Both the position numbers and the translations under genes were made by a program. A DNA stretch of 44,059 nt from Acetobacter cerevisiae (lineage in GTDB: Bacteria > Pseudomonadota > Alphaproteobacteria > Acetobacterales > Acetobacteraceae): assembly GCF_001580535.1 (NCBI RefSeq), contig NZ_LHZA01000135.1, forward strand, positions 1 through 44,059. The letters run 5' to 3'. Below the pieces are notes generated by a model. That model was given only the letters and a program-made list of their open reading frames with translations, had not been told where the DNA came from and did not search any database. Of the stretch, positions 24,326 to 43,889 are shown one piece after another (positions within the stretch are counted from its first letter, which is position 1; each line of letters opens with the position of its first letter).

Positions 24326-26125
24326 TTAACCGGCTTTGGTTTTTGCAATCCACTGATCAACGAGATCAGACATCAGATCCAGCGGCATGGCGCCGTTCCC
24401 CAGAATAACATCATGGAACGCCTTGATATCGAACTTGTCACCCAGTTCGGTTCTGGCTTTTTCACGCAGTTTCAGAATGGTCTGCTGGCCCAGCATATAG
24501 CCCAGCGCCTGCCCCGGCCATGCAACGTAGCGGTCTGTTTCCGCCTGCATATCCGGCTCACTGGTGGGCGGATGCGCGTGGAAGAAGTCGCTCATCTGCT
24601 GGCGCGTCCAGTGTTTGTAATGCACACCGGTATCCAGAACCAGACGATCAGCCCGCAGCAGTGCCCCGTTCAGGCGGCCATAATCGCTGTAGAGATCCTG
24701 ATAAAAGCCCAGTTCTTTCCCCAGACCTTCCGCATACAGCGCCCAGCCTTCCACATAGGAATTATAAGCCCCCTGCTGGCGGAAAGCGGGCAGCGGCATG
24801 TCCTGCGCCAGAGAAATCTGGAAGTGATGCCCCGGCACGCCTTCATGATACGCCGTGTCTTCAATCGTATAGAGGTCGCGCTTGTCGTAATCCCCCGTAT
24901 TGACGAACACGATCCCCGGACGAGCCCCATCCGGTGTACCCTGATGATACTCCGCACCGGCTGCATCCGCCTCGCGGTAGGCCTCAACAGACCGAACTTC
25001 CAGCTTCGTCTTGGGAATCTTGTTGAAAATGCGCGGTAACGCAGGCCACATCTGCGCAATATAACCGCGATATTTCTCCAGAATTTCTTCACGAGACTTC
25101 GCATACAGCTTCGGGTCATGATCCACGGATGCCCGCAGTGCGGCAAGATCAGCAAACCCAAGCTTGTGGGCAATCTCAGTCATCTGCCCTTCAATCCTGC
25201 TCACCTGCTGCAAGCCAAGCTGATGAATTTTTTCCGGAGCCATAGGGCTGGTTGTCTGCACGCGGATTGCGTAGCGATACAGGGCATCACCATTCGGCAG
25301 GGACCAGATCCCTTCATGCACGCGGCCATGCGGGGCGTAGTCCGTTTTTACAAACTGGGCAAAACTGGCGAAGGCGGAGCGAACTTCCGTATCCACCGCT
25401 TTCAGAATAGCCTGCCTTAACCGGGCCTGCTGCGCGGAGGAAATTCCCTTGGGGAAATTTTCAACCGGCTGGCCAAAGACGTTTTTAACGCCTGCGGGTT
25501 CTGCAACCTGCTCCAGCTGCGTCACAACTTTTTCAAGCAGATAGCGCGGGGGAACCAGACCGTCCTTCATCCCCTGCTCCGCCAGAACCTTCAACTGCGC
25601 CAGCACAGCAGGCAGCGCATGCAGGCGGTCCAGATAATCCTGATACTGGCCCGCTGTTTCAAACGGAATGGAGGATACAAAGCCCGGCAGCATCAGTTGC
25701 ACGCCCTGCACCTGATCAATCGGCAGCTCGTAGGTTTTGAGCGCAAAGCCGTCCAGCTTGTCCTGAAGCTGGCGGATCATCATCGCACGGCTGATCTGCT
25801 CCTGCCCCGTCAGGGTCGCAGGATCAACAGCTTCAAAGCGTTTGAGAAACCATGCTGTGGTAACTTTATCTCTTGCAATCTGCTCCAGAGAATAATCGGT
25901 CCACTGCTTGTTGTAGCGATAATCACCAATGGTGGTCGCAAGCTCGGGGGAAGACCGGAGCTGATACTGCCATTCCTCATCCAGCAGGGCTGCAAAAGCC
26001 GTGCTGGCAGACGGTGCTGCCGGGGCAGCCTGCGTCGTTTTTTCCGGGGCTGGCGCAGCCAGTGCCGTGCCGCTGGCCAGCACACAGGCCAGCCCTAATC
26101 CTGCCAGACGATGGGGTGCAAACAC
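24326..26125 (-). CDS. Exported DUF885 metallopeptidase 1
   Basis: The product (about 599 residues from the GTG at 26125) has a signal peptide (FAPHRLAGLGLACVLASGTA then LAAPAPE) and a DUF885 domain. The zinc-binding signature HEGVPGHHFQISLAQD is near residue 426, followed by YVEGWALYAEGLG with the third ligand Glu, and the C-terminal ETDRYVAWPGQALGYMLGQ block. DUF885 proteins are secreted dipeptidyl or oligopeptidase-like enzymes of poorly known specificity. The GTG has AGGGAG upstream; the longer ATG start at 26188 would read through a hairpin and lose the signal peptide. It follows the TonB receptor 2 gene by 104 bases, so the two are probably one unit; peptide import is the likely joint task. 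Confidence 0.9.
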   Translation of the reverse strand: MFAPHRLAGLGLACVLASGTALAAPAPEKTTQAAPAAPSASTAFAALLDEEWQYQLRSSPELATTIGDYRYNKQWTDYSLEQIARDKVTTAWFLKRFEAVDPATLTGQEQISRAMMIRQLQDKLDGFALKTYELPIDQVQGVQLMLPGFVSSIPFETAGQYQDYLDRLHALPAVLAQLKVLAEQGMKDGLVPPRYLLEKVVTQLEQVAEPAGVKNVFGQPVENFPKGISSAQQARLRQAILKAVDTEVRSAFASFAQFVKTDYAPHGRVHEGIWSLPNGDALYRYAIRVQTTSPMAPEKIHQLGLQQVSRIEGQMTEIAHKLGFADLAALRASVDHDPKLYAKSREEILEKYRGYIAQMWPALPRIFNKIPKTKLEVRSVEAYREADAAGAEYHQGTPDGARPGIVFVNTGDYDKRDLYTIEDTAYHEGVPGHHFQISLAQDMPLPAFRQQGAYNSYVEGWALYAEGLGKELGFYQDLYSDYGRLNGALLRADRLVLDTGVHYKHWTRQQMSDFFHAHPPTSEPDMQAETDRYVAWPGQALGYMLGQQTILKLREKARTELGDKFDIKAFHDVILGNGAMPLDLMSDLVDQWIAKTKAG

Positions 26126-26156
26126 GCTGATACTCTCCCTGCCAATCATACAAACA

Positions 26157-26185
26157 ATTATGCCTGGCACGGGGCCAGGCATAAT
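26157..26185 (-). terminator. Strong stem-loop between TonB receptor 2 and the DUF885 gene
   Basis: A perfect 12-bp stem (ATTATGCCTGGC with GCCAGGCATAAT) with a 5-base loop. On the minus strand it is followed by TGTTTGT, not a clean T run, so it may attenuate or process the mRNA rather than end it fully. Confidence 0.6.
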
Positions 26186-26229
26186 CACGTCGTCTTGTGT
26201 TTTTAAGTCGTTACGGTCTTCATTACAAA

Positions 26230-29121
26230 TCAGAACTGAACACCGGCCTGAAGGAAGACATAGCGACCGATAATCTCATCAGAATACATCGCCAGAGCCG
26301 TATTGGTGCCGCCATCGGGCACAAACGGGGGCTTCTTATCCAGAATGTTGTTCACGCCACCTTCAAAGTTCCAGCGGCCCAGACGGTAGCTGGCCGTGAT
26401 GTCATGCGAGAAGATCCCCGGCACTTTGCAGTAAACGTAAGCCTTGCAGGACAGATCGCTCGAACCATCGGTAAACTTCATCCCGCCAGTGTAGTGCATC
26501 ATGTAACGCAGGCTGAAGTCGTTATGGTGCCAGGTCACCGTAGCATAATCACGCACGCGGGGCATGCCGTAACCGCTTTGATAGAACAGACGGCCTGCAT
26601 AGTTGTTCCACTCGCCATTCGGTTCGTTCTGCTGCAGGTACCCCACCAGCTGCTGGAAGTTGTTTTCCAGCGTGAAGGAATCCTGCGGCGTCACCTGAAT
26701 ATGGTAGCTCAGGTCAAAGTCGATCCCGTTCGTGCGCAGGCCGCCAACGTTGGCATACAGATCACTCACCTGCGTCAGCTGCCCGGCGGTGGAGCGCTGC
26801 TGCACCTGAGAACAGTAGGACGGGTCCGCCCCGGTATAGCACTGGTCCGCCACATACTGCACAGGCAGCGTGCTGATCATGTGCTGCACAGTGTAGTGCC
26901 AGTATTCAACAGACGCCATCAGCCCCGGCACCCAGCGCGGCGTAATAACCGTGCCAACCGTATAGGTCCGGCCGATTTCCGGCTGGAGGTTCGGGTTGCC
27001 GCCCGTCAGCGTCGGGATCTGCCCGCTGTTGACGTTCACAAAGTTTGCGGGGTTCACACCCTGAGTAAGACACTTGGACGTCACCGCCGCGCTGGCCGCA
27101 CCATAGCTTCCGGCCTGTGCACAGGGGTCCGTGCCCGGGTTGTAGGAAATGGACTGACCACCGAACATTTCAGACATATTCGGCGCACGGAAGGACGTGC
27201 CCAGCGTGGCGCGGAAGCGGATATCCTGCACCGGAGCCCAGTTGATGCCGACCTTCCAGTTTTCGGCGCTGCCAAACGTATTGTAGTGCGAATACCGGCC
27301 CTGCCCATCAATGGTCAGATCCTTGGCGAGGAAAGCATTCTGGAGCAGCGGAATTTTGCCTTCCAGATACACTTCCGTCACGTTGTAGCCACCACCGGTG
27401 TAGGTCGCGCCCCCACCAAGGTCACCGTTCGCAGCCAGCGCATCCGGGCTGTAGCTTGCCTGCTCACTCCGGTGCTCAATGCCGCCTGCAATCCCGATAT
27501 TCCCGCCGTGCTCATACGGCAGTTTGACAACCTTGTTGTTAAAGACGCGGAAGTTGAAATCACGCATCTGGTAGTAGCTGTGGTCGTTCTGGGTGTAGCC
27601 GATATAGTTTTTTGCCTGCTGGGACAGCGGCTCAAACGGATTGATCAGCGTACAGCCGGGGGACGATGTACAGACTGAGGGGTTATAAACCACCGCACTG
27701 TTCGGATCAGACGGATCAACCTGCTGCTGGCCCAGAACATTCATCGCATTGCGATAGTTCGTCATGTTGTTGGTGGTCATGGTCGCAACGGACGAACCAT
27801 ACGTCATGGACGCATCATACTGCCAGTTGCCGGCAATCTCGCCCTTCATGCCGCCCATCACCTGATAGGTATCGACACCTTCCTTGTATTCACGGTTCCC
27901 GATATCGGCCATCCGCTTATACAGGGATACATCTTCCCCCCACGTGTTGTAAGGGTTGCCCGCCGGCAGGATCCAGGACGTGCTGAGCGTTGACGGATAA
28001 GACGAACCCGTCAGCGGGTTCGGCGCCATTTCGTTCATGGCATCCTTGTGGGTGTACCGAACGTTGGCATACAGCTGGAAATGCTTGTTGATGTCATAAT
28101 GCATATCCCCAGACAGGTTCCCGCTTTGCAGGTAGTTTGTCATGGAGGCATCACGCGCAAAGTTATAGCGGTCCGCATTACCAAACGTATGGAAGCCACC
28201 GCCTGAACTGTTGGCCACAAGGTTGGTTGTGCTGCCATCGGCATTGGGCACCATCACGCGTGTGGCGGTGGACACCGAACTGCCGTACGGGACCGCTTCA
28301 CCCGGCGCCACGTCCGCATTCCACGGCAGGCGGGACCATTTGCGGTCACGCTGGTAGATCGGGCTGGTGGTCATATACTGACCAAAGATGCTGATATTCC
28401 CGCGGTCCTGGTCAAAATTGAAGCCTTTGAAGCCTGAAATTTTGCCAGACTGCCCATCACCATAGCTGCTGATCCCGCCGCGCACCTGAATGCTGCCGGT
28501 TGTCAGGTTATGCTTGAGCTTGATGTTGATAACGCCCGAGACTGCATCCGCACCATAGAGTTCGGACCCACCGTCTTTCAGAATTTCCACAGAGGAAATC
28601 TGGTCAACCGGGATGGAGTTCAGATCCACGCAGGAGCTGCCCTGCCCCATGGTTTCAACCTGACGCTTGCCGTCCACCAGCACCAGCACACGGCTGGGGC
28701 CAAGGTTGCGCAGGTCAGGGCAGGACATACCCAGACCACCATTGGTGGTTGTGTTGCCTGCGCCCTGAGAACCCATGGAGGGCAGACGCTGCAGATAATC
28801 GCCCAGTGTGACAGCAGACGTTTGCTGAATATCTTTGGCGCTGATGATCTGAACAGGATTGGGGTCCTGATGCTTACCAGAAGACAGTGCGGAACCGGTT
28901 ACGGTAAGCACTTCCGGCTGTGCTGCGGCACTCTTCGCTGTGCGGCGCACAACGCGGGCTGACTCGTTTTTCTTCTTCACAGACGCAGCAGTGGATTGAT
29001 CCTGACGCGGTGACGCCTCTGCGGTGGCTGCCACAGACTGAGCATAGGCACTTGACCCAATTGCCAGGGACAATGACGACGAAAAAGCGAGGAGCGTGAG
29101 GCGATGGGGTAAATACGACAT
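26230..29121 (-). CDS. TonB-dependent outer membrane receptor 2 (hydroxyproline cluster)
   Basis: This 963-residue receptor has a signal peptide (LTLLAFSSSLSLAIGSSAYA), a linker, a plug domain (EVLTVTGSALSSGKHQDPNP, VTLGDYLQRLPSMGSQGAG, GPSRVLVLVDGKRQVETMG, then IPVDQISSVEILKDGGSELYG) and a large barrel ending in LQAGVQF with the terminal Phe. The plug has the pattern seen in TonB receptors for peptides and carbohydrates of the Caulobacter/Xanthomonas type rather than siderophore receptors. The start has AAGGAACGCTGAAGG upstream. A copy of the cluster operator at 29198-29209 and a TTGACA (29210-29215) lie in its promoter region. With the DUF885 peptidase downstream it probably imports oligopeptides or glycopeptides. 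Confidence 0.94.
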   Translation of the reverse strand: MSYLPHRLTLLAFSSSLSLAIGSSAYAQSVAATAEASPRQDQSTAASVKKKNESARVVRRTAKSAAAQPEVLTVTGSALSSGKHQDPNPVQIISAKDIQQTSAVTLGDYLQRLPSMGSQGAGNTTTNGGLGMSCPDLRNLGPSRVLVLVDGKRQVETMGQGSSCVDLNSIPVDQISSVEILKDGGSELYGADAVSGVINIKLKHNLTTGSIQVRGGISSYGDGQSGKISGFKGFNFDQDRGNISIFGQYMTTSPIYQRDRKWSRLPWNADVAPGEAVPYGSSVSTATRVMVPNADGSTTNLVANSSGGGFHTFGNADRYNFARDASMTNYLQSGNLSGDMHYDINKHFQLYANVRYTHKDAMNEMAPNPLTGSSYPSTLSTSWILPAGNPYNTWGEDVSLYKRMADIGNREYKEGVDTYQVMGGMKGEIAGNWQYDASMTYGSSVATMTTNNMTNYRNAMNVLGQQQVDPSDPNSAVVYNPSVCTSSPGCTLINPFEPLSQQAKNYIGYTQNDHSYYQMRDFNFRVFNNKVVKLPYEHGGNIGIAGGIEHRSEQASYSPDALAANGDLGGGATYTGGGYNVTEVYLEGKIPLLQNAFLAKDLTIDGQGRYSHYNTFGSAENWKVGINWAPVQDIRFRATLGTSFRAPNMSEMFGGQSISYNPGTDPCAQAGSYGAASAAVTSKCLTQGVNPANFVNVNSGQIPTLTGGNPNLQPEIGRTYTVGTVITPRWVPGLMASVEYWHYTVQHMISTLPVQYVADQCYTGADPSYCSQVQQRSTAGQLTQVSDLYANVGGLRTNGIDFDLSYHIQVTPQDSFTLENNFQQLVGYLQQNEPNGEWNNYAGRLFYQSGYGMPRVRDYATVTWHHNDFSLRYMMHYTGGMKFTDGSSDLSCKAYVYCKVPGIFSHDITASYRLGRWNFEGGVNNILDKKPPFVPDGGTNTALAMYSDEIIGRYVFLQAGVQF

Positions 29122-29197
29122 CCTTCAGCGTTCCTTAATTCCTGAGCGGTGATCCGCTAACTCTTGTGTGGTGAGGACATCAAAATCGCTATCAGAT

Positions 29198-29209
29198 ATC
29201 GTATACCAT
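29198..29209. promoter_or_regulatory. Operator copy A (TonB receptor 2 promoter)
   Basis: ATCGTATACCAT matches the half-site ATCGTATAC shared with the three other copies (30584, 35700, 35868). On the minus strand it lies directly after TTGACA (29210-29215), a consensus -35. A -10 at 17 bases would be ATAGCG, which is poor. A bound regulator would sit between -35 and -10. Confidence 0.75.
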
Positions 29210-29363
29210 TGTCAAAACGGAATTAGTTTTGGAATGCATTCTGTTGCAACCCCGGTGTTGCGCCACTTATGGCATGGAGACCAACGCAGGCCCGTCTGTG
29301 TCCATACCCCTCCGCCCCACCGTTCAATATCTTTTTGAAATTCCTATAAATTTCTCTTTAAAC

Positions 29364-29396
29364 AAAAAAAACGTGCAGAGTTGTTGGCTCTGCACG
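29364..29396 (-). terminator. Rho-independent terminator of the epimerase gene
   Basis: CGTGCAGAG pairs perfectly with CTCTGCACG around a 7-base loop. On the minus strand it is followed by an unbroken T run of eight. It lies about 120 bases after the epimerase stop. Confidence 0.85.
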
Positions 29397-29515
29397 CTTC
29401 AACCGGATTATGTTGCAACAGGCCAAACCTGTAACCCAAAATCCACAACCCGCTTTTTATTTTGATACCGTTATAAGGTTAAAATTTCTTTAGAAATCAA
29501 CAGAAACTTTCGTGA

Positions 29516-30511
29516 TCAGGAAACCTGGAATCCGCGGCAGAATCGATCCTCCTCATCAATCCAGATCGTGTTAAACCCGGTTGAGACCGCACTTCCCTCA
29601 ATCATAGGTACAATCGCCTTGTAGTCTCCCACAGTCGTTTCTTCCGCCACTGTCCCTTTGAACACACTGCGGATGTAACTTTCATGGGTGAAGGTATCCC
29701 CCACCTTCAAAGCACCTTTGTGATGCAGGTGCGCCAGCCGGGCGGACGTACCGGTGCCACACGGGCTACGATCAATCGCATGATCTCCATAAAAGACCGC
29801 GTTACGGCTCCGCTCAGCGGTTGTGCCTTTATCCACCCACAGAACGTGGCTAACCCCCTGAATACGACTATCCAGCGGATGAACCGGACAAACAGCCTCC
29901 CGCATCCGTTCCCGCACAAGCGGGCTTAACTCAAGAATACGACGGGCTCCGAGCTGATCCAGCCCTTCATACGCACCCTGTGGTTCGACAATAGCGTAGA
30001 AATTCCCGCCATAAGCCACATCCACCGTCAACGGCCCCAGACCGGGCACGTCAATCTGCACATCTGTCGCCGCGACATAGGCCGGCACATTACGGATCGC
30101 GACACTCCGCACACGGCCATTCTCTTCCGTGTAGGTGATGTCAATAATCCCGGCAGGCACCTCAAGTTTCAGTTTTCCAGGGGTGCGCGGGTTCAACAGA
30201 CCATGTTCCAGCCCGAACGTCACCAGCCCGATTGTGCCATGCCCGCACATAGGCAGGCATCCGCTGGTTTCAATAAACAAAATACCCGCATCAGTGTCAG
30301 GCTGCGTGGGCGGATACAGAAAACCGCCGGACATCATATCATGCCCGCGTGGTTCAAAGCACAGACCGGTGCGGATCCAGTCAAACCGTTCCAGAAAATC
30401 CTGACGGCGCTCCCCCATGGAATTCCCCCGCAGCAGAGGAGCGCCACCACTAATCAGGCGGACAGGGTTGCCAGCAGTATGACCATCAATACAGAAAAAT
30501 GTGTGACGCAT
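29516..30511 (-). CDS. lhpA: 4-hydroxyproline 2-epimerase (proline racemase family)
   Basis: This enzyme converts trans-4-hydroxy-L-proline to cis-4-hydroxy-D-proline, the first step of bacterial hydroxyproline breakdown. The 331-residue product has both catalytic cysteines of the family: Cys89 in MCGHGTIG and Cys251 in DRSPCGTGTSARLA. The pair Cys/Cys indicates an epimerase or racemase; a Thr at the second place would mark trans-3-hydroxyproline dehydratase. DGHTAGNPVRLI near the start is also typical. Proline racemase is the alternative, but the neighbours make hydroxyproline the likely substrate. I start it at 30511 (MRHTFFCIDG); the frame extends to 30550. It is divergent from the GH42 gene and both could be controlled through operator copy B. 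Confidence 0.9.
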   Translation of the reverse strand: MRHTFFCIDGHTAGNPVRLISGGAPLLRGNSMGERRQDFLERFDWIRTGLCFEPRGHDMMSGGFLYPPTQPDTDAGILFIETSGCLPMCGHGTIGLVTFGLEHGLLNPRTPGKLKLEVPAGIIDITYTEENGRVRSVAIRNVPAYVAATDVQIDVPGLGPLTVDVAYGGNFYAIVEPQGAYEGLDQLGARRILELSPLVRERMREAVCPVHPLDSRIQGVSHVLWVDKGTTAERSRNAVFYGDHAIDRSPCGTGTSARLAHLHHKGALKVGDTFTHESYIRSVFKGTVAEETTVGDYKAIVPMIEGSAVSTGFNTIWIDEEDRFCRGFQVS

Positions 30512-30583
30512 AGCTTTTAAAGTCCGTGCTTCGGGGTGCCGCAAGGGCACGATCCGGCTTTCTTTTTGGTGCGATTTTCGTCT

Positions 30584-30595
30584 ATCGTATACGTA
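30584..30595. promoter_or_regulatory. Operator copy B (epimerase / GH42 divergent region)
   Basis: ATCGTATACGTA, identical in all 12 bases to copies C and D. It lies 72 bases before the epimerase ATG and only 2 bases before the GH42 ATG at 30598. A possible -10 of the GH42 promoter, TATACG (30588-30593), with TTGGTG 16 bases upstream, is inside it. Confidence 0.8.
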
Positions 30596-30597
30596 TC

Positions 30598-32739
30598 ATG
30601 ACCGATATGACCCGTAAAGCCATCCCCCGTCCCGGCTCACCCGCCCCCTCTTTCGGCCAGACTCTCCGCCGTGTCAGGCGGTCCGTCTGGCAATTGGGGC
30701 TCTGCTTTGGCCTGTGCGGTGGCGCATCCTCCCTTGCTCTGGCAGCCCCCGCCTCATCAGAAGCACCAGCCCTCCTGCTGGGCGCGGCCTGGTATCCGGA
30801 GCAGTGGCCGGAAGACGTTTGGGAGCATGACCTCGCTTTGATGGAAGCGGCCCACATCCATCTGGTGCGCATCGGCGAATTTGCATGGAGCCGCATGGAA
30901 CCGCGTGAAGGCGAGTGGCAGTGGGACTGGCTGGACCACGCCATTACACTAGCAGCCAAACACCATATGAAAGTCCTGCTGGGCACCCCCAGCGCCGCCC
31001 CACCGGCATGGCTGACGCAAAAATATCCTGAGACCCTGCGCGTCTCTAATGCAGGCGTGCGGGATGAGCACGGAAACCGGCAGCAGTTTTCTTTTATCAG
31101 TACTCGCTACCGTGCCCTGACGCATGATCTGGCGGAACGCATGGCCGTGCGCTACGGCCATAACCCGCATGTTGTTGGCTGGCAGATTGATAATGAACTG
31201 GCCGAGCCGTCCTTTGACCCGGAAGCCCATAAAGCCTTCCACGCATGGCTCCAGCACAAATACGGTACAATTGAAAATCTGAACCAGAAATGGTGGACCA
31301 GCTACTGGTCCCAAACCTATTCCGATTTTGGCCAGATCCCGGTGCATGACGCGGAGGAAAACCCGGCCCTGCTCTTAAACTGGAAGCAGTTTGTGACCGA
31401 CACATGGGTGAGCTACGTCCGCAATCAGACGGCCCCCATCCGCCAGCACGCCCTGCCCTCCCAGTTCATCACCACCAACACCATGGGCTGGTTCGACGGG
31501 TTTGATGGCTACACCCTGCACCAGTCTCTCGATCTGGTCGGGTGGGATGATTATGAAACAGACTGGACAGATAACGCCGCCCGGCATGATCTGGCCCGCG
31601 GCTATAAAAACAAAAACTTCTGGGTGACGGAAACAGATCCCGGCTTTGTTAACTGGCGGCCCAATAATCTGGCGCATGACAAAGGCGAGGTCCGCGCGCT
31701 GGCATGGCAGGCTGTGGGACATGGCGCCGATGCCGTGGAATACTGGCAATGGCGCGCCGCCCTGAACGGGCAGGAACAATATCACGGCGTTATTGCGGGT
31801 GCGGATGGCAACCCCGCCCCTATTTATAGCGAAATCCAGACACTTGGCGCTGAGTTTGAAAAAGCCGCACCGGCTTTGCAGGGCACCTCTCCCCACGCAC
31901 AGGTCGCGCTGCTGCATGATATGCCCTCACGCTGGGCCATCACTTTTCAAAAACAGGTGGAAGATTTTAACCCGGTCAAAGCGCTGACAGCCTTTTACGG
32001 CCCCTTGCGCCATCGGGCTGGCACGGTGGATGTTATCTCGCCACGCCAAAATCTGGCGTCCTACAAGCTCATTGTCGCTCCCGGCCTGAATGTGCTGCCA
32101 CAGGAGACGGCTGAGCATCTTCTCGCATGGGTGCGACAAGGCGGCCACCTTCTGCTGGGGCCACGTTCCGGCATGAAAGACGCTGAAAATGCGCTTGACC
32201 CACACCTCCAGCCCGGCCCGCTCTCCCCTTTTCTAGGGGCGCACGTCTCACAGTTTTACGGGCTGGTGCAGCCTGTTCCCCTTTCTCTGGGGCAGACGCA
32301 GGGCACAGGCACCCTCTGGGCAGAAACACTGGTGCCAACAGACCCGGGCACGCAGACGGAAGGCAGCTATGCCCCTTCCAATGGCTGGCTTGATGGGCAG
32401 CCTGTGGCTATCAGTCATCAGGTCGGCAAAGGGAAAATCACCTATCTAAGCACAATCCCCGATGCTGCAACGCTGGACGCCTACATCACAACGCAGGTGC
32501 GGGACGCTGGCGTGCTCTCTCCTTTGGCGGATCTGCCTGCTGACATTGAGGCCTGCCTGCGCACTGGCAAGGACCATACGGTGCTGGTGCTCATCAATCA
32601 TGCCAGAACACCGGTTATGTTCACGCTCCCGCAAGCTATGGCGGGCACGGACCTGTTCGACCCCAAGCAGGCAGCCTCCGGCCAGATCACCCTGCCGGGC
32701 TATGGGCTTCGCGTTTTAACGCTCCCTAAGGCAGCTTGA
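30598..32739 (+). CDS. Exported GH42 beta-galactosidase
   Basis: The 713-residue protein has a basic start and a signal peptide (RRSVWQLGLCFGLCGGASSL then ALAAP), so it acts in the periplasm or outside, unusual for GH42 enzymes, which are mostly cytoplasmic. The TIM barrel begins LLGAAWYPEQWPEDVWEHDL, with VRIGEFAWSRMEPREG. The acid/base Glu200 is in WQIDNELAEP and the nucleophile Glu345 in WVTETDPGF. The glutamine-amidotransferase-like domain (LLAWVRQGGHLLLGPRSG) and a short beta domain follow. It would release galactose from beta-galactosides such as arabinogalactan side chains. Start is 30598 or 30607; neither has a Shine-Dalgarno, so the mRNA may be leaderless. Twin arginines (RRSVWQL) leave Tat export open. 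Confidence 0.92.
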   Translation: MTDMTRKAIPRPGSPAPSFGQTLRRVRRSVWQLGLCFGLCGGASSLALAAPASSEAPALLLGAAWYPEQWPEDVWEHDLALMEAAHIHLVRIGEFAWSRMEPREGEWQWDWLDHAITLAAKHHMKVLLGTPSAAPPAWLTQKYPETLRVSNAGVRDEHGNRQQFSFISTRYRALTHDLAERMAVRYGHNPHVVGWQIDNELAEPSFDPEAHKAFHAWLQHKYGTIENLNQKWWTSYWSQTYSDFGQIPVHDAEENPALLLNWKQFVTDTWVSYVRNQTAPIRQHALPSQFITTNTMGWFDGFDGYTLHQSLDLVGWDDYETDWTDNAARHDLARGYKNKNFWVTETDPGFVNWRPNNLAHDKGEVRALAWQAVGHGADAVEYWQWRAALNGQEQYHGVIAGADGNPAPIYSEIQTLGAEFEKAAPALQGTSPHAQVALLHDMPSRWAITFQKQVEDFNPVKALTAFYGPLRHRAGTVDVISPRQNLASYKLIVAPGLNVLPQETAEHLLAWVRQGGHLLLGPRSGMKDAENALDPHLQPGPLSPFLGAHVSQFYGLVQPVPLSLGQTQGTGTLWAETLVPTDPGTQTEGSYAPSNGWLDGQPVAISHQVGKGKITYLSTIPDAATLDAYITTQVRDAGVLSPLADLPADIEACLRTGKDHTVLVLINHARTPVMFTLPQAMAGTDLFDPKQAASGQITLPGYGLRVLTLPKAA

Positions 32740-35696: not shown

Positions 35697-35712
35697 TTTA
35701 TCGTATACGTAA
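35697..35712. promoter_or_regulatory. Operator copy C (deaminase side)
   Basis: TTTATCGTATACGTAA, core ATCGTATACGTA at 35700-35711. It lies about 32 bases upstream of the deaminase start and shares a 20-base stretch (TTCGTTTATCGTATACGTAA) with copy D, in the same orientation although the genes diverge. Confidence 0.85.
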
Positions 35713-35864: not shown

Positions 35865-35880
35865 TTTATCGTATACGTAA
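35865..35880. promoter_or_regulatory. Operator copy D (M24 operon side)
   Basis: TTTATCGTATACGTAA, core at 35868-35879, 33 bases before the ATG of the first M24 peptidase. TTGCTC (about 35842-35847) and TATCGT, 17 bases apart, could be its promoter, with the -10 inside the operator, which fits repression. The centre is 168 bases from that of copy C. Confidence 0.85.
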
Positions 35881-37070: not shown

Positions 37071-37100
37071 ATATCTGATCAAGAAAGACGGACATCTCTC

Positions 37101-38867
37101 ATGCCCTCTCCCTCCCCCTCAGAGCGCCTGACGGCCCTTCGATCTGCTCTGTCCGGCCTTGGTGTAGACGGGTTCTTCCTGCCCCGAGGCGATGAACATC
37201 TTGGCGAATACGTGCCTGCCTGCGCTGAACGACTGGCCTGGCTGACCGGCTTTACCGGCAGCGCCGGCCTCGCGCTGGTTCTGCCGGACACAGCCGCCGT
37301 ATTTTCTGATGGGCGCTATCAGGTGCAGATGCGCCAGCAGGTGGACACGTCCCTCTGGCCTGTTGAGCATATGTATGAAACGCCCCCGCCTCTGTGGCTG
37401 GCCAAACATGCGCGCGGGAAAGCCATTGGGTATGACCCGCGCAGCGTGAGCGTTCGGGATATTGAGGCGCTGGAACAGGCCGGATGCCATATGGTCGCCC
37501 TCCCTTGCAATCCCGTCGATGGCATCTGGGCCGATCGACCCAAAGCGCCAGCCTCACCGGTCTGCATTCAGCCTCTGACACTCACGGGACGTGAAAATAG
37601 CGCAAAAATTCAGGATATTGCGGACACCCTGCGTCAAGCCGGACAGGATGCCGTCATTCTGCCTGACCCGACCAGCATTGCATGGCTTTTGAATATTCGT
37701 GGGCGAGACCTGCCCTTTTTGCCGGTCGCCCTCTGTTTTGCCATCCTGCATGCCGATGCCACGGTTGATCTGTTTATTAATATCGACCGCATTGATGATG
37801 CGGTGCGCAGCCACCTCGGCACCTCCGTCCGTGTCCATATGCCTGCGGACATGGAGCCGGTTTTGCAAACCATGCACGGAAAAACCGTGCGGCTGGACCC
37901 GGCCCGCTGCCCGATCTGGTTTGCAAGCACCCTTAAAGACGTAAAAGCCACACTGGCGGAAGACACAGACCCGTGCCTCATGCCCCGCGCCTGTAAAACC
38001 CCGGCGGAACTGGACAGCATGCGCCGCGCCCACCTGCTGGACGGCATTGCCCTGACCCGTTTCCTTTGCTGGGTGGAAACGCATGGCGTCGGCAAAACCG
38101 AGGCCGCCATCGCGGACCATCTTCTGACCCTACGCCGCGAGGCGGAAACCTGTATCGGCCCAAGTTTTCACACCATTGCAGGCTCTGGCCCGAACGCCGC
38201 CATCATGCACTACGCCCCCACGGCGGAGCAGTGCAGCCTGGTAAAGGCCGACGCCTTTCTACTGGTTGATAGCGGCGGCCAATATACCTGCGCCACCACC
38301 GACGTAACCCGGACTGTCTGGCTGGGTGCAGGCTCTCCGCCCGATAACTGGAAAAAGCAGTATACCTGCGTGCTTCAGGGGCTGATCGCGCTGGATCAGG
38401 CCGTCTTCCCGGCAGGCACGCATGGTTACCGGCTGGACCCTCTGGCCCGGCTGGCTTTGTGGAAAGAAGGACTGGATTTTGACCACGGCGCAGGGCACGG
38501 CGTCGGCAGTTGCCTGTCCGTGCATGAATGGCCGCTCGGCTTCACCCGCCGCCCCGTGCTGGACCCGCTCCATGAGCATATGGTGATGACGAACGAACCG
38601 GGCTTCTACGCCCCCGGCTCTCACGGCATGCGGCTGGAAAACCAGATGGAAACCTGCCTGGCCTACAAAACCGAAACAGGCGACTACCTCCGCTTTAAAA
38701 CGCTCACGCTGGCCCCCATTGATACGCGCGGCATCATTGTAGACCGCCTGACAGAGACGGAGCGCGACTGGCTGAACAGCTACCATGCCCGCGTGCTGGA
38801 GCAGATTGGCCCCCATCTGCCCCCGGAGGAGCGCGACTGGCTGCAATGCGCCTGTGCGGCGCTGTGA
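37101..38867 (+). CDS. Aminopeptidase P family protein (M24B)
   Basis: This 588-residue protein matches the long, three-domain aminopeptidase P layout: two creatinase-like N-terminal domains (LGVDGFFLPRGDEHLGEYVPA and SIAWLLNIRGRDLPFLPVAL), then the catalytic domain with Asp390 (LVDSGGQY), Asp401 (TDVTRTV), His466 (GAGHGVGSCLSVHEWP), Glu499 (MTNEPGFY) and Glu513 (RLENQME) as metal ligands. It removes N-terminal residues from Xaa-Pro peptides in the cytoplasm; Xaa-Hyp activity is inferred from the cluster. It begins 30 bases after the first M24 gene, and its stop overlaps the next gene. Confidence 0.94.
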   Translation: MPSPSPSERLTALRSALSGLGVDGFFLPRGDEHLGEYVPACAERLAWLTGFTGSAGLALVLPDTAAVFSDGRYQVQMRQQVDTSLWPVEHMYETPPPLWLAKHARGKAIGYDPRSVSVRDIEALEQAGCHMVALPCNPVDGIWADRPKAPASPVCIQPLTLTGRENSAKIQDIADTLRQAGQDAVILPDPTSIAWLLNIRGRDLPFLPVALCFAILHADATVDLFINIDRIDDAVRSHLGTSVRVHMPADMEPVLQTMHGKTVRLDPARCPIWFASTLKDVKATLAEDTDPCLMPRACKTPAELDSMRRAHLLDGIALTRFLCWVETHGVGKTEAAIADHLLTLRREAETCIGPSFHTIAGSGPNAAIMHYAPTAEQCSLVKADAFLLVDSGGQYTCATTDVTRTVWLGAGSPPDNWKKQYTCVLQGLIALDQAVFPAGTHGYRLDPLARLALWKEGLDFDHGAGHGVGSCLSVHEWPLGFTRRPVLDPLHEHMVMTNEPGFYAPGSHGMRLENQMETCLAYKTETGDYLRFKTLTLAPIDTRGIIVDRLTETERDWLNSYHARVLEQIGPHLPPEERDWLQCACAAL

Positions 38868-40117
38868 CAGCTCTGCTTCCTCCTCCTCGCTCCGTCCTTG
38901 TGCTGGGTGGCGGCATTATTGCACGCACCTGCGCCCTGCGCCTTCAGGAACAGGGGTGTGCCGTCACGCTGGTTGCTGAGCCCGACACGGCCCCGCCATC
39001 ATGGGGCAACGCCGGACATATTGCGACGGAGCAGGTGCAGGTTCTGGCACGCTTTGCCACGGTCACCCGTGTGCTGTCTGACCACTTCCCGCGCGGCCCT
39101 GTGGCGCTGGACTGGGGCTCTGCTCCCACGTGGCTCCCCTGGTCTTTCCGCTTTCTACGCGCCTGTCTGCCGGGCTCTGTGCGCCGGGGCGATGCCGCCT
39201 TGCGTGGCCTGATGCTCAACGCGCTGCCTGCATGGGAAAAACTCGCCCAAACACTAGAAAGACCAGACCTTCTGGACCTGCGCGGTGTGGTCAAACTGTG
39301 GGAAGGCTCAGACGCAGAGCAGAAGGCCACAAATGCGCTACAGGCCGACCATGGCCCTGCAACCACCACGCCGATGGGTGCCGCACAGATTGCTGCGTTC
39401 AATCAGGCCCTCGTCACCCCGGTCAAAGCCGGCGTGCATTTTGCAGGTACCGCCCACATCACCAACCCGCGTGACGTTCTGGATACGCTTCTGGCGCGAT
39501 TTGTTTCCGCCGGAGGCACGCATCTTGCGGCCCGTGCGGTGAAGATCTCCCCTGAGGCAGACACCGTCCGGGTGAGCACCACGCAAGGAGATCTCACCGC
39601 AGACCGCGTTGTCGTGGCCTGTGGCTTACGTTCCGGGGCTTTATTGCCAGACGTCGCCGTGCCGCTGGTGGCGGAACGCGGCTACCATGTGGAGTGGAAC
39701 CACGGCGGCCAGTGGACGCTGCCGAATGCAGTTTTTGAAGACCGCGCTGTGGTCGTCACCCGCTTTGGCAGCCGCCTGCGTGCCACATCCTTTGTTGAGT
39801 TCACGCGGGATGCCTCCGCGCCAGACCCGCGCAAGTGGGAACGGCTGGAAGCCCATGTGCGCGCATTGGGCTTACCCGTCGCCTCTCCCTTTGCCCGTTG
39901 GCATGGCTCCCGCCCCACCCTGCCGGATTACCTGCCTGCTCTGGGCTCGTTCCGCCATGCGCCGCGCATTGTTGCGGCCTATGGGCACAACCATCTGGGC
40001 CTGACCCTCGGGCCTGTCACCGCGGACGTGCTGAGCGCGCATATCCTGCGTGGCGCCCCCCTCCCTACAGCTTTCAGCCCGGACAGGTTCAGCCTGCGCT
40101 CCGGCTTTTCGAACTAA
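38846..40117 (+). CDS. FAD-dependent D-amino acid dehydrogenase, probable D-hydroxyproline dehydrogenase
   Basis: The 423-residue protein has a DadA-like fold: an FAD-binding Rossmann motif SVLVLGGGIIARTCALRL near the start, SWGNAGHIATEQVQ typical of DadA, a central substrate domain, and GHNHLGLTLGPVTADVLS near the C-terminus. It should oxidise cis-4-hydroxy-D-proline to 1-pyrroline-4-hydroxy-2-carboxylate, passing electrons to a quinone. Some bacteria use a multi-subunit enzyme for this step; here it is a single chain, as in the HypO type. Start is uncertain: ATG 38846 (22-base overlap, GGAGGAG 15 bases upstream) or GTG 38864 (GTGA overlap). Either way it is coupled to the aminopeptidase P gene. 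Confidence 0.87.
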   Translation: MRLCGAVTALLPPPRSVLVLGGGIIARTCALRLQEQGCAVTLVAEPDTAPPSWGNAGHIATEQVQVLARFATVTRVLSDHFPRGPVALDWGSAPTWLPWSFRFLRACLPGSVRRGDAALRGLMLNALPAWEKLAQTLERPDLLDLRGVVKLWEGSDAEQKATNALQADHGPATTTPMGAAQIAAFNQALVTPVKAGVHFAGTAHITNPRDVLDTLLARFVSAGGTHLAARAVKISPEADTVRVSTTQGDLTADRVVVACGLRSGALLPDVAVPLVAERGYHVEWNHGGQWTLPNAVFEDRAVVVTRFGSRLRATSFVEFTRDASAPDPRKWERLEAHVRALGLPVASPFARWHGSRPTLPDYLPALGSFRHAPRIVAAYGHNHLGLTLGPVTADVLSAHILRGAPLPTAFSPDRFSLRSGFSN

Positions 40118-40126
40118 GGAAACCTC

Positions 40127-41686
40127 ATGACTTTAACAGGCGCTCTTCTGATCGGACAGAACACGGTCACTCGTCCCGAAACCTTTCAGGCCCTCGATGC
40201 GACCACGGGTGAGACACTGGACACAGCGTTCTCCTGCGCAACAGCCGACGATGTCCGCACGGCCTGCACTCTGGCTGACGAAGCCTTTGACACCTTCCGC
40301 GCCACCACGCCGGAAGCCCGTGCGCAGTTTCTGGACTGCATTGCGGATGAAATTGAAGCCATTGGTCAGCCCCTGCTGGACCGTGCCCACGCAGAAACAG
40401 GCCTGCCCCTGCCGCGCCTGACAGGTGAGCGGGGCCGCACCATGGGCCAGCTCCGCATGTTTGCGCGGGAACTGCGGGCTGGGCGTTGCCTTGATGCCCG
40501 TATTGACGAAGCCCTGCCTGACCGCAAACCCATGCCCCGCGCAGACCTGCGCCAGATCCGTATTGGTGTTGGCCCGGTTGCTGTATTCGGAGCCAGTAAC
40601 TTCCCGCTGGCCTTCTCCGTCGCCGGGGGCGATACCGCCTCCGCTTTTGCGGCGGGCTGCCCGGTAGTCGTCAAGGCGCATCCGGCCCACCCCGGCACCA
40701 GTGAACTGGTTGGCCGCGCCATTCAGTCCGCCGTGAAGAAATGTGGCCTGCCGGAAGGCACATTCTCCCTCGTCGGTGGCCCGGATTATGCCTTGGGAGC
40801 CGAACTGGTCAAACACCCGGCCATTATGGCGGTCGGTTATACTGGCTCCCGCGCGGGCGGCCTTGCTCTCAGCCAGATTGCAGCGGGCCGCCCGGTCCCG
40901 GTGCCGGTTTATGCGGAAATGAGCAGCATCAACCCCGTCTATCTGCTACCGGATGCCCTGAAGAACAGCGCCGAGAGCCTTGGCGCGGCCTTCATCACCT
41001 CCCTCACCATGGGTGCCGGGCAGTTCTGCACCAATCCGGGTCTCATTCTGGCCCTGAGCGGCCCGGATCTGGAGCGTTTCTGCCAGAGCGTGCAGGAAGC
41101 TCTTAAAACCGCCCCAGCCCCCACCATGCTCACCCAGTCCATCCATGCCTCTTACGATGCAGGCGTGGAAAAACTGGCCGGGCGTCCGGGTGTGTCTCTG
41201 CTGGGCCGTGGGCCGAAGGGCGATGCCTCCAGCTGTCAGGCTGCCGTGTTCACCACGGACGCCGAAAGCTTCATGCAGGACCCGATCATGCAGCATGAGA
41301 TTTTTGGCTCCTGCTCCCTGATTGTAGCCTGTCCGGATCTGGACAGGCTGCTTGCCCTGACGCGCAGCCTTGAAGGCCAGCTGACAGGCACGCTGCATCT
41401 GGAAGACGGTGATATTGCCGTCGCCCAGACGCTGATACCGGTTCTGGAACGCAAGGTTGGCCGCATTCTCGCCAACGCCTGGCCGACGGGTGTGGAAGTT
41501 TGTGCCGCTATGGTGCATGGCGGCCCCTTCCCGGCCACAACGGACCCGCGCAGCACATCCGTCGGCACTGCGGCCATTGAGCGCTTCCTGCGCCCGGTGT
41601 GCTATCAGGACCTGCCTGATGCCCTTCTCCCCGCCGGCCTGCGCAGCACCAATCCCCTCGGCCTGCCGCGCCAGACCGACCAATAA
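40127..41686 (+). CDS. 2-oxoglutarate semialdehyde (2,5-dioxovalerate) dehydrogenase
   Basis: This 519-residue aldehyde dehydrogenase has the NAD(P) segment (GPVAVFGASNFPLAFSVAGGD), YTGSRAGGLALS, the general base Glu264 in VYAEMSSINP, and the catalytic Cys301 in GAGQFCTNPGL. These variants (AEMSSINP, GQFCTNPG) are those of the 2-oxoglutarate semialdehyde dehydrogenases of sugar-acid and hydroxyproline pathways. It would oxidise the semialdehyde to 2-oxoglutarate, which enters the TCA cycle, and so completes the pathway. AAGGAAAC precedes the ATG, and the gap to the previous gene is 9 bases. Confidence 0.93.
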   Translation: MTLTGALLIGQNTVTRPETFQALDATTGETLDTAFSCATADDVRTACTLADEAFDTFRATTPEARAQFLDCIADEIEAIGQPLLDRAHAETGLPLPRLTGERGRTMGQLRMFARELRAGRCLDARIDEALPDRKPMPRADLRQIRIGVGPVAVFGASNFPLAFSVAGGDTASAFAAGCPVVVKAHPAHPGTSELVGRAIQSAVKKCGLPEGTFSLVGGPDYALGAELVKHPAIMAVGYTGSRAGGLALSQIAAGRPVPVPVYAEMSSINPVYLLPDALKNSAESLGAAFITSLTMGAGQFCTNPGLILALSGPDLERFCQSVQEALKTAPAPTMLTQSIHASYDAGVEKLAGRPGVSLLGRGPKGDASSCQAAVFTTDAESFMQDPIMQHEIFGSCSLIVACPDLDRLLALTRSLEGQLTGTLHLEDGDIAVAQTLIPVLERKVGRILANAWPTGVEVCAAMVHGGPFPATTDPRSTSVGTAAIERFLRPVCYQDLPDALLPAGLRSTNPLGLPRQTDQ

Positions 41687-41730
41687 AGCCCTCTAACAGC
41701 CAGCCCTTCGACTGATGACAGGAGCCGTTC

Positions 41731-43290
41731 ATGGCGCATGATGAGTCAGGCCACTTCAAGCAACGCCTTGGTCTGTTTGACCTGACCATGATCGGCTTTG
41801 GGTCCATCTTCGGCTCAGGCTGGCTGTTTGCCGCCGCCCATGTGGCGGATATGGCCGGCCCGGCCAGCATCGTCTCATGGCTCATCGGCGGGGTCGCCGT
41901 TTTGCTGATCGGGCTGGTCTATTGCGAACTGGGCGCTGCCCTGCCGCTGGCAGGCAGCGTGGTGCGCTACCCGGAGCAGGCCCACGGCTCCACCGCCGCC
42001 TTCCTGACAGGGGCGATGACCACCATCGCTTTTTCCAGCCTGATTTCCATCGAGATTGTCGCCGCCCGCCAATACGCCGATGCGTGGATAGGCGGCCTGT
42101 CCCGCAATGCCAGTGGTGACCCTACGCTGGCTGGATGGCTGGTGCAGTTTGCAATTATGGTTGTGCTGTATGCCATCAACCGCCGTGGCATTGGCAGTTT
42201 TGCACTCGTCAATAACATCGTCACCGTCTTCAAGTTTCTGGTGCCGACACTGGTTATCGTGCTGCTGCTGGCCTATATGCACCCCGGCAATTTCAGCCTG
42301 CATGGCTTTGCACCGCACGGCTTTCAGGGCGTGGAGACAGCCATTTCCGCCGGGGGCGTCATTTTTGCCTATCTCGGCCTGACGCCTATCCTGTCCGTTG
42401 CCAGTGAAGTCCGAAACCCACAGCGCACCATCCCCATTGCGCTGGTGGCCTCCATCACGCTCGCCATGCTGGTTTACCTGCTGCTGCAAACAGCTTTTAT
42501 CGGCGCGCTTCCCGCTAACCTGCTGACGGAGGGCTGGAATGGCATTGCAACCCGCCTTGCCCTGCCGTTTCATGACATTGCGGTACAGCTCGGCCTGAGC
42601 TTTCTGGCTCTCATGGTGGTGACGGATGCCATTCTGTCCCCCACGGGCACCGGCAACATCTACATGTCGGCTACGGCCCGCGTGGTCTACGCCTGGTCCA
42701 AAAGCGGCACGTTCTTTCCGGTTTTCCAGCGCATGAACACCCAGCGCGGTGTGCCGGACAAAGCGCTGCTGCTCACCTTCGGTCTGGCCCTTTTCTGGAC
42801 GCTCCCGTTCCCCTCCTGGCAGGCGCTGATCGGCGTGGTCTCCTCCGCGCTCATGCTGAGCTATGCCATGGCGCCCACGTCTGCCGCAGCCCTGCGCCGC
42901 TCCCGGCCTGATTTGCATCGCCCCTTCCGTCTGCCCTACTTCAACCTGCTCTCACCGCTGGCTTTTGCGATTGCATCCCTGATTGTCATCTGGACCGGCT
43001 GGACCACCCTCTGCTGGCTGATGCCCGCCCTGCTGGTGCTGACAGCCATTTTCATGGCCGTTGCCCGGCGCAGCCTGTCCAATGCAGAATGGACGCGGGA
43101 ACTGCGTAGCAGCCTCTGGATGCCAGCTTATTTTGTGGGGCTTCTGGGTCTGTCCTGGTGTGGCCCGTTTCAGGGCACCGGTCTGCTGAACCATGTGTGG
43201 GACGATATCGCAGTGGTCGTGTTTGCGCTGATCATTCACCACTGGGCCGCAATCTGCGGCCTTCAGGATCAGGCAGAACACGCAGCCTGA
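41731..43290 (+). CDS. APC superfamily amino acid permease
   Basis: The 519-residue protein is a polytopic transporter with about 12-14 membrane segments. The start FDLTMIGFGSIFGSGWLFAA is the APC signature for TM1, with the GSGW break, and EVRNPQRTIP after TM6 is also typical. It is the last gene of the M24-dehydrogenase operon (44-base gap, ACAGGAG ribosome site), so hydroxyproline, proline or a small peptide are the likely substrates. Selectivity cannot be read from sequence. It converges with the GntR gene, 29 bases apart. Confidence 0.9.
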   Translation: MAHDESGHFKQRLGLFDLTMIGFGSIFGSGWLFAAAHVADMAGPASIVSWLIGGVAVLLIGLVYCELGAALPLAGSVVRYPEQAHGSTAAFLTGAMTTIAFSSLISIEIVAARQYADAWIGGLSRNASGDPTLAGWLVQFAIMVVLYAINRRGIGSFALVNNIVTVFKFLVPTLVIVLLLAYMHPGNFSLHGFAPHGFQGVETAISAGGVIFAYLGLTPILSVASEVRNPQRTIPIALVASITLAMLVYLLLQTAFIGALPANLLTEGWNGIATRLALPFHDIAVQLGLSFLALMVVTDAILSPTGTGNIYMSATARVVYAWSKSGTFFPVFQRMNTQRGVPDKALLLTFGLALFWTLPFPSWQALIGVVSSALMLSYAMAPTSAAALRRSRPDLHRPFRLPYFNLLSPLAFAIASLIVIWTGWTTLCWLMPALLVLTAIFMAVARRSLSNAEWTRELRSSLWMPAYFVGLLGLSWCGPFQGTGLLNHVWDDIAVVVFALIIHHWAAICGLQDQAEHAA

Positions 43291-43319
43291 CCCTTGCTTA
43301 AATCCTTACCGGGCGCACC

Positions 43320-43889
43320 TTATTTCAACGCGCCACGCAGATCATCCAGCGTGGTCTGGATATGTTTGCGCATCAGCTTTTCAATCTCACGCTTGTTCCC
43401 CGCCAGCCAGCACGCCATCAGGTCCCGATGTTCCTGATTAGCGCGGGTATCAATATCCTGCATGTGCATGTGAAAGCGCACGTAACGATCTGCCGTCACA
43501 TTCAGCAAGGTTAGCACATGGATGGTCGTGGGGCCTGCGGCAGGTTCCACAAGAGCCAGATGGAACAGCCGGTTATAAACCCCGCGTTGCGGGTCCTGCC
43601 GCGCCACCGCACTTTCCAGCTCTTCCAGACAGGCCTGCGCCTTCTTTGCATCCTCTTCCGTCGCACTCTGGGCACCAAGGGCCGTGGCCTCAGGCTCAAT
43701 CAGCAAACGCAGGTGGAAGACATCTTCTGCTTCCTTACGCGTCAGCGGGGTGACGAAAAACCCCCGTTTGGGGTGAAGGGAAACGAGGCCATCCTGTTGC
43801 AGGCGCACCAGCGCTTCACGCACCGGAATTTTGCTGATCTCAAATGCGGCAGCAATGCCGTCCTGCCGGATCGGCTCACCTTCCCCCAC
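43320..43889 (-). CDS. GntR/FCD-family regulator, probable regulator of the hydroxyproline cluster; 5' end abnormal
   Basis: The visible 189 residues contain most of a GntR winged helix (DGIAAAFEISKIPVREALVRLQQDGLVSLHPKRGFFV) and an all-helical FCD effector domain with Asp/His ligands (HLRLLIEPEA, YNRLFHLALV, EHRDLMACWLAG). FCD regulators bind small carboxylates or amino acids and commonly recognise GTATAC-like palindromes, which fits the four operators here. The GTG at 43889 cuts off helix 1, but the same frame upstream encodes the missing part (SRSISDQLYDVLREQILNGE, to about 43940). No ATG, GTG or TTG precedes it until an ATG at 44021, and a TGA lies between. Either a non-canonical start is used or the gene is damaged. 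Confidence 0.85.
   Translation of the reverse strand: MGEGEPIRQDGIAAAFEISKIPVREALVRLQQDGLVSLHPKRGFFVTPLTRKEAEDVFHLRLLIEPEATALGAQSATEEDAKKAQACLEELESAVARQDPQRGVYNRLFHLALVEPAAGPTTIHVLTLLNVTADRYVRFHMHMQDIDTRANQEHRDLMACWLAGNKREIEKLMRKHIQTTLDDLRGALK

Follow-up and report, generated by a model that had tools for sequence, protein, structure and literature searches.

Extensins and arabinogalactan proteins (AGPs) are common in plant walls, and in the literature found their use by bacteria has so far been described enzyme by enzyme. On the catabolic side, the account of Proteobacterial HypR regulons (Leyn et al. 2016, PMC5343134) lists among the members, in some taxa, a TonB receptor, a COG531 permease, AmpP, other proline peptidases, a di/tripeptide permease and secreted collagenases. 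On the side of the sugars, passages of PMC10850190 describe XeHypBA1 as a GH146 enzyme acting mainly on Araf-beta1-Hyp (it was filed under GH127 by PMC6085000), and Bll4HypBA1 (GH146) as acting on Araf-beta1-Hyp of the glycoprotein backbone. In Xanthomonas a prolyl oligopeptidase gene, there a pseudogene, adjoins the hydroxyproline (Hyp)-arabinosidase genes, and the Discussion of that study asks why these arabinosidases are kept though the arabinose is unusable (PMC6085000). Here, we report a gene cluster on a contig of 44,059 nucleotides (NZ_LHZA01000135.1, C108 in our numbering, hereafter the window) of the Acetobacter cerevisiae assembly GCF_001580535.1, a genome of 3.09 Mb in 157 contigs that belongs by its relatives to the malorum/persici group. 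The cluster probably forms a regulon of the HypR type by which the bacterium feeds on plant glycopeptides rich in hydroxyproline, namely extensin and AGP fragments.

Gene families, shared operators and co-localisation in several genera can be read from the sequences themselves; beyond them we infer what the substrates are, that each glycosidase is exported, that the GntR protein represses, in which order the steps run, and what DUF5695 and a 760-residue protein family do. An earlier note on this DNA had proposed that a Hyp pathway, uptake, and glycan and peptide trimming make up one plant-glycoprotein regulon, and this proposal is supported by the shared operators and by the different glycosidases found in the same cluster elsewhere. 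The most telling enzyme is a GH127/146 beta-L-arabinofuranosidase, which lies outside the window on the next contig, C110.

Operator sites across the cluster

One near-palindromic operator type (TATCGTATAC...) occurs at four places of the cluster, next to the genes for the receptor, the epimerase and GH42, the deaminase and the M24 peptidases (Table 1). With up to two mismatches allowed, ATCGTATACGWA matched the window five times, at four places, where 1.26 matches were expected, and five were reached in none of 100 shuffles. The strict pattern TATCGTATACNNW was found five times in the whole genome, four times in the cluster and once at C110:5483, and its reversed control pattern gave no match; if the synteny seen in A. 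malorum holds here, all five strict matches belong to one locus.

A motif matrix was trained on 19 sites that precede genes for deaminase, dehydrogenase or M24 peptidases, with no site directly in front of a glycosidase gene, and was applied to 21 partly overlapping loci of 465,129 bases in total. These loci were chosen for holding such genes, so the test informs on the positions of operators and not on the frequency of the system. It returned 21 further distinct sites scoring at least 16, compared with 0.13 per pass in a Markov control and one site in 14 real non-Hyp loci (249,269 bases); at a score of at least 9, about two sites are expected by chance per pass over all 21 loci. The further sites precede GH42, GH146, DUF5695, 760-residue family and DUF885 genes, some again precede core genes, and sites at receptor genes mostly score 13-15. 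A chance motif was rejected on the shuffles, the reversed pattern and the Markov control taken together.

At the GH42 gene the operator is identical in all five genomes that carry GH42, and no Shine-Dalgarno sequence was seen by eye between operator and ATG; with the site standing so close to the start codon, a leaderless transcript is possible. The start itself, at 30598, is likely because the ATG after the operator is kept in all five genomes and the second Met is Ile in one of them (G285). No operator site was seen before the GntR gene within the window, where the contig ends about 100 bases behind this gene, i.e. inside the system. The regulator would presumably bind these operators, repress from them and respond to Hyp.

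Arabinofuranosidase, DUF5695 and peptide permease on contig C110

In two genomes of A. malorum, G262 and G263, the gene set of C110 (Table 1) shares a contig with the regulator and comes directly after it. The GH127/146 protein aligns over its catalytic part with 5opj at 432 bits, keeping E-x-C-N and WCCVG, and GH127 entries such as 3wkw score far lower. We take 5opj to be BT0349, and the conserved Glu and three Cys to serve in catalysis. The beginning of the abstract of PMC10728902 is in line with such a role of Glu and Cys in GH146, and passages of PMC10850190 present BT0349 as the founder of GH146, acting on arabinan-derived oligosaccharides. Judged from its sequence, the C110 enzyme may plausibly act on Araf-beta1-Hyp.

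For DUF5695 and the 760-residue family, no solved relative was found by sequence or profile beyond chance matches, profile comparison gave no support for relatedness between the two, and scans of viral contigs showed no relative of either. The DUF5695 open reading frame (ORF) of A. malorum G262 (L075:9411-11507) has 699 residues, against 947-948 in the window genome and G263, through an internal shortening that leaves the frame open.

Conservation in Acetobacter and Acetobacteraceae

Within the genus, an epimerase match was present in 11 of 49 genomes, nine of them at 74% identity or more over the full length. In one of these genomes (G264) the cluster has neither GH42 nor a receptor match; its genes run in the order DHDPS-DUF885b-epimerase-DUF885a, and GH127/146 and the 760-residue family are also present, close to operators. 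For the family, 249 evenly sampled Acetobacteraceae genomes of 102 genera were searched, the window genome (G000) included. The epimerase was matched in 84, of which 15, from 10 of the 102 genera, reached at least 71%. The other 14 of these 15 close-epimerase loci were opened, up to about 20 kb each, along with six more distant loci, in which no operator-type site was seen. The 14 loci hold the deaminase (13), the FAD-dependent dehydrogenase DAO (13), the APC permease (12), the GntR/FCD regulator (12) and the aldehyde dehydrogenase (8). Neighbouring stretches add a receptor in G056, both M24 genes in G174 and DUF885b in G219.

The GH127/146 domain (PF07944) was over its cut-off in 15 of the 249 genomes and of full length (at least 343 bits) in nine, six of which have it in the Hyp cluster: G174, G192, G056 and G042 within about 13 kb of the epimerase, G000 counted by A. 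malorum synteny, and G219 on the strength of two contig ends with a piece of the permease gene on each. The probability of this association by chance is 1.2e-6 by genome and 0.0015 by genus, kinship being handled to the genus level. An alternative figure of six out of six was set aside, its cut having been set after the data were seen.

Other glycan-arm genes were rarer in the family sample. GH35-DUF5597 occurs in three genomes, all three times in the Hyp cluster; it is also present in Caulobacter and a Bacteroides among 14 control genomes (loci not opened). The 760-residue family occurs in four, again always in the Hyp cluster, and DUF5695 in the window genome alone. One of the four 760-residue members, located between the regulator and receptor genes (L083 / G079:C1:48635-48955), is a stop-containing remnant, which suggests that this genome has lost the glycan arm. 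The fullest set, in G174, comprises S9, M24b, GH127/146, M24a, POT, receptor, 760-residue family, DUF885b, GH35, epimerase, deaminase, FAD enzyme, aldehyde dehydrogenase, permease and regulator.

Plasmid-borne relatives beyond the family

DUF5695 was found in four of 72,556 plasmid records, all from sphingomonads (tomato and Rheum rhizosphere, Chinese cabbage, tap water), and all four plasmids have GH127/146 and DUF885 within about 7 kb of it. An operator-type site stands at GH127/146 in three of them (scores 20.0, 19.3 and 13.9), and the fourth has a weak site before the deaminase (11.3). The epimerase (72-73%) shares the plasmid with DUF5695 in three of the four strains, lying about 14 kb away in Novosphingobium RL4, about 12 kb away in S. 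hankookensis when counted across the origin of the record, and about 57 kb away in Sphingomonas R1. The Hyp core of Sphingomonas R1 has an operator-type site scoring 13.3 upstream of its deaminase gene. The remaining strain has deaminase, regulator and permease genes beside DUF5695 and its epimerase on another plasmid. The opened stretch of Novosphingobium RL4 gave no match to the FAD, GntR or APC queries.

Further glycosidases accompany these clusters. S. hankookensis has a LacZ-type GH2 beside the receptor. The Ldh-family oxidoreductase gene between DUF885 and GH127/146 in three of the sphingomonad plasmids (L100, L102, L103) perhaps encodes, by our assumption, a pyrroline-carboxylate reductase. 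Novosphingobium sp. RL4 has a GH43 gene between DUF885 and the receptor (L095:14352-15932), GH43 being the family of the alpha-1,3-arabinosidase XeHypAA (passages of PMC6085000). On pR1a of Sphingomonas sp. R1 a rhamnogalacturonan degradation cluster (L102:17876-26586) comes directly after the GH127/146, DPP IV, DUF5695 and receptor genes. The 760-residue family was found on one plasmid, pACIX901 of Granulicella tundricola, beside DUF885, GH31, GntR, aminopeptidase P, DHDPS and FAD genes, with no epimerase within the stretch. In Niveispirillum the Hyp core is accompanied by DUF885 and an M24 gene, with two GH43 genes at a greater distance.

GH42 and the alternative readings

Several observations weigh against a dedicated glycopeptide system. 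In the 14 opened family loci M24a was matched in four, M24b in two, the receptor in three and DUF885b in three, so the catabolic core appears to be general and the peptide and glycan arms to be held by a minority. DUF885a homologues (88-91%) occur in two genus genomes that have neither an epimerase match nor operators. GH127/146 lies away from the Hyp genes in three of the nine full-length genomes (G184, G014, G129), and nine of the 15 family genomes with a close epimerase have no match to it. The GH146 family is not uniformly Hyp-specific, the nearest solved member being 5opj; Bll3HypBA1, also of GH146, is beta-1,3-specific and nearly inactive on Araf-beta-Hyp according to passages of PMC10850190, and no GH121 was seen among the scanned proteins. 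The Granulicella pACIX901 stretch has no operator-type site scoring 9 or more. The FAD enzyme, the deaminase and the aldehyde dehydrogenase are probable assignments from fitting superfamilies and gene context. GH42, finally, occurs in five of the 49 genus genomes, and no epimerase, deaminase or GntR match was seen in the flanks, some of them short, of 14 non-Acetobacter GH42 loci. Co-conservation of GH42 with the Hyp genes is not general: all five GH42 genes lie beside the epimerase, in genomes among the nine with a close epimerase, but four of those nine are without GH42.

A GH42 limited to one lineage, and close-epimerase genomes without GH127/146, would suit a HypR regulon of the ordinary kind, serving free Hyp and peptides of Pro and Hyp (compare collagen peptides and Alteromonadales), the glycosidases being passengers near regulated promoters. 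Peptidases, a dipeptide permease, a TonB receptor and a COG531 permease are indeed published members of such regulons, and the main text names no glycosidase among them (PMC5343134). We nevertheless consider this improbable, given that the clusters of both Acetobacteraceae and Sphingomonadaceae contain or adjoin genes of GH127/146, GH42, GH35, GH2, the 760-residue family and DUF5695, several of them behind an operator or in an operator-led gene run, and that on an acidobacterial plasmid comparable genes stand next to the 760-residue family. Purifying selection on GH42 speaks against a mere passenger as well (three comparisons gave dN/dS values of 0.076, 0.081 and, across 482 codons of G285, 0.104).

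That the locus harvests sugar from arabinan, rhamnogalacturonan II or galactan side chains, and is co-regulated with Hyp genes since wall breakdown releases both sugar and Hyp, seems to us very improbable. The catabolic genes are for Hyp, the operator is common to peptidase and peptide permease genes, and no arabinose or galactose catabolic family was seen among the scanned ORFs of the window and C110, which are not all the ORFs there. Points that would agree with sugar harvesting are the likeness of the arabinofuranosidase to 5opj, the rhamnogalacturonan cluster just beyond in Sphingomonas R1, and the company of GH43, alpha-L-fucosidase and aldose epimerase genes in which the Rhodanobacter GH42 lies.

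Within the genus, GH42 has relatives in A. malorum LMG 1746 (95%), DsW_057 (93%) and A. persici JCM 25330 (84%); in G285 it is split over two contigs, and its frame break in G275 is likely an assembly error because the deaminase gene is broken in that record too. The A. persici JCM 25330 record (L007, L061) has the deaminase in three frames and GH42 in two, probable assembly errors. Outside Acetobacter the nearest GH42 proteins come from acidobacteria (up to 61%) and Rhodanobacter (57%) and are encoded in varied loci, of which only parts of Rhodanobacter L014 and Acidipila L010 were scanned for families; L010 has an M24-like ORF before GH42 (E 4.7e-7) and L012 a partial DUF885 match about 9 kb off. 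Distant GH42 genes (at most 41%) occur in six other genomes of the family sample, with no Hyp genes in the short flanks fetched. From these relationships GH42 is likely a late gain from an acidobacterial or Rhodanobacter-type source.

It could then be that GH42 alone is unrelated to the system, a general beta-galactosidase divergent at the epimerase promoter, with GH146 and DUF5695 as the true glycan arm. In its favour, no GH42 relative outside the genus was found together with Hyp genes, and the GH42-free G264 keeps most of the cluster. We regard this as doubtful: the operator abuts the GH42 ATG in the same way in all five genomes, and other lineages have a different beta-galactosidase in its stead, GH35 in three sampled genomes of the family and a LacZ-type GH2 in S. 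hankookensis. AGPs carry beta-galactose on Hyp and extensin alpha-galactose on Ser, so a beta-galactosidase fits AGP-type rather than extensin-type linkages; that GH42 might remove galactose from Hyp is a guess from sequence.

Gene content of the window

Gene families were called by Pfam and NCBIfam profile scans of 18 window ORFs. The scans confirmed what the earlier note had named, i.e. two DUF885 proteins, receptor, epimerase, GH42, DHDPS fold, two M24 peptidases, DAO, aldehyde dehydrogenase and APC permease; the GntR/FCD regulator was absent from its gene list. No HypR model was among the NCBIfam matches of the window proteins, and no comparison with Sinorhizobium HypR was made. Likely starts, from sequence, are 30511 for the epimerase, 35913 for M24a and 35665 for the DHDPS-fold protein.

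Table 1. Features of the cluster in the window and on contig C110 (C110 positions carry the prefix)
Feature	Position	Strand	Evidence and remarks
DUF885a, putative exported metallopeptidase	24326..26188	-	PF05960 555 bits; HExxPGH as HEGVPGHH; 3' of receptor gene
TonB-dependent receptor	26230..29121	-	PF00593/PF07715
Operator copy	29197..29209	.	Upstream of receptor gene; weakest, score 13.3
Trans-4-hydroxyproline epimerase	29516..30511	-	NCBIfam PRK13971 515.4 bits vs cut-off 376; two Cys motifs CGHG, CGTG
Operator copy	30583..30595	.	Between epimerase and GH42; ends 2 bases before GH42 ATG; score 24.3, outside training set
GH42 beta-galactosidase-family enzyme	30598..32739	+	PF02449 382 bits, PF08532; N-terminus signal-peptide-like by eye
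DUF885b, putative exported metallopeptidase	32854..34641	-	PF05960 514 bits; HESSPGH; behind deaminase gene; nearest solved 3o0y
DHDPS-fold protein, probable Hyp-pathway deaminase	34760..35665	-	PF00701; 169.5 vs dapA cut-off 206 (below)
Operator copy	35699..35711	.	Upstream of deaminase gene
Operator copy	35867..35879	.	Upstream of M24a operon
M24 peptidase a, prolidase-like	35913..37070	+	PF00557, PF01321; no signal peptide by eye
M24 peptidase b, aminopeptidase P-like	37101..38867	+	PF00557, PF16188, PF16189
FAD D-amino acid dehydrogenase family (DAO), probable D-Hyp dehydrogenase	38846..40117	+	PF01266
Aldehyde dehydrogenase, probable 2-oxoglutarate semialdehyde dehydrogenase	40127..41686	+	PF00171; nearest solved 3v4c, NADP+ aldehyde dehydrogenase, 485 bits
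APC amino acid permease	41731..43290	+	PF13520
GntR/FCD regulator, probable HypR-type repressor	43320..~43958	-	PF07729, PF00392; start uncertain, 43889 or further up
GH127/146 beta-L-arabinofuranosidase-family gene	C110:147-2543	-	PF07944 402.8 bits
DUF5695 ORF, 948 residues	C110:2618-5461	-	PF18951 1178 bits
Operator-type sites	C110:5483 and near 5616		Scores 18.0 and 23.8
POT-family peptide permease gene	C110:5715-7223	divergent	TIGR00924 264 bits, over cut-off

The Cys pair of the epimerase motifs is presumably catalytic, as are, by our assumption, the two Glu of GH42 in its motifs NE (residues 199-200) and TE (344-345). Homologues of the TonB receptor, at 56-67% identity, occur in four Hyp clusters of other genera. 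The DUF885 proteins are putative peptidases by their HExxPGH motif and by family similarity to 3o0y, which is listed merely as a lipoprotein; a structure prediction for DUF885b from eight sequences had a mean pLDDT of 47.5 and a pTM of 0.33 and was not used.

A polysaccharide utilisation locus of the SusC/SusD type was rejected, the SusC signature reaching 22.4 against 46.2 bits and no SusD match being seen in the 18 scanned window ORFs, and so was a collagen-type system, with no collagenase family in the same ORFs. Genes for gamma-glutamyltranspeptidase and a secretory lipase (window 21200-24205) have the same place beside the cluster in A. malorum, and there is no site of the operator type in their vicinity. 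Upstream of the cluster lies a further TonB receptor gene (window 16151-18733), different from the first, with no operator-type site scoring 13 or more nearby.

Proposed pathway

In the proposed pathway, the TonB receptor would bring Hyp-glycopeptides into the periplasm, where the GH127/146 beta-L-arabinofuranosidase would remove Hyp-linked arabinose, perhaps helped by DUF5695 or, in other lineages, by the 760-residue family, and a beta-galactosidase (GH42 here, GH35 or GH2 elsewhere) would remove galactose. The DUF885 enzymes, joined in some relatives by a DPP IV-like S9 enzyme, would shorten the peptides, and the POT and APC permeases would import small peptides and free Hyp. Inside the cell the two M24 enzymes would split X-Hyp bonds, and epimerase, FAD dehydrogenase, deaminase and aldehyde dehydrogenase would convert Hyp to 2-oxoglutarate, with the GntR/FCD repressor released by Hyp.

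Quite possibly, though we advance it tentatively, this is a horizontally spread, cross-phylum system for using plant Hyp-rich glycoproteins in which the sugars are removed mainly to reach the amino acid, and in which DUF5695 and the Tat-type 760-residue family are new families of Hyp-glycan glycosidases that replace each other between lineages. The regulon at any rate marks both families as candidate Hyp-glycan enzymes; DUF5695 is named in one paper of the openly licensed PMC literature. The operator gives a handle for seeking further parts in fruit and rhizosphere bacteria, and Hyp harvesting offers a testable answer to the question raised about the Xanthomonas arabinosidases.

Comparison with described systems

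The new part seems to be the glycosidase arm in a Hyp regulon, the stripping of sugar and the burning of Hyp having so far been described apart. Among the matches listed from openly licensed PMC papers, no title or abstract start joins glycosidases to a Hyp regulon. The earlier note had held such a glycosidase to be undescribed, and none appeared in the literature found; the peptidases, receptor and permeases of HypR regulons, on the other hand, are published (PMC5343134).

The proposal for degradation of Hyp-rich glycoproteins by Latescibacteria, made in silico, resembles ours in assigning GH127 and beta-galactosidases (GH2, GH42) to extensin and AGP, but in its cited passages includes neither a shared regulon nor a Hyp pathway (PMC4454575). 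With the HypAA/HypBA2/HypBA1 systems of Xanthomonas euvesicatoria and Bifidobacterium longum the cluster shares GH146 members, which there take arabinose off the Hyp of Hyp-rich glycoproteins. The cited passages on those systems make no link to Hyp catabolism, Bifidobacterium uses the sugar, and GH121 was not seen here (PMC6085000, PMC10850190).

The HypR regulon of Streptomyces coelicolor likewise has a GntR regulator of the FadR subfamily and a Hyp pathway, together with a secreted protease, a collagenase; its operator differs, its target is collagen as against the plant glycoprotein proposed here, and the proteins tabulated in the cited passage include no glycosidase (PMC6608401). The Proteobacterial HypR regulons also join a GntR repressor to Hyp pathway genes, as the cluster does here with a palindromic operator before its Hyp genes. 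Unlike those regulons, in the main text on which no glycosidase is named ('glycos' occurs nowhere in it; PMC5343134), the present cluster adds an arabinosidase, a galactosidase, DUF5695 and DUF885.

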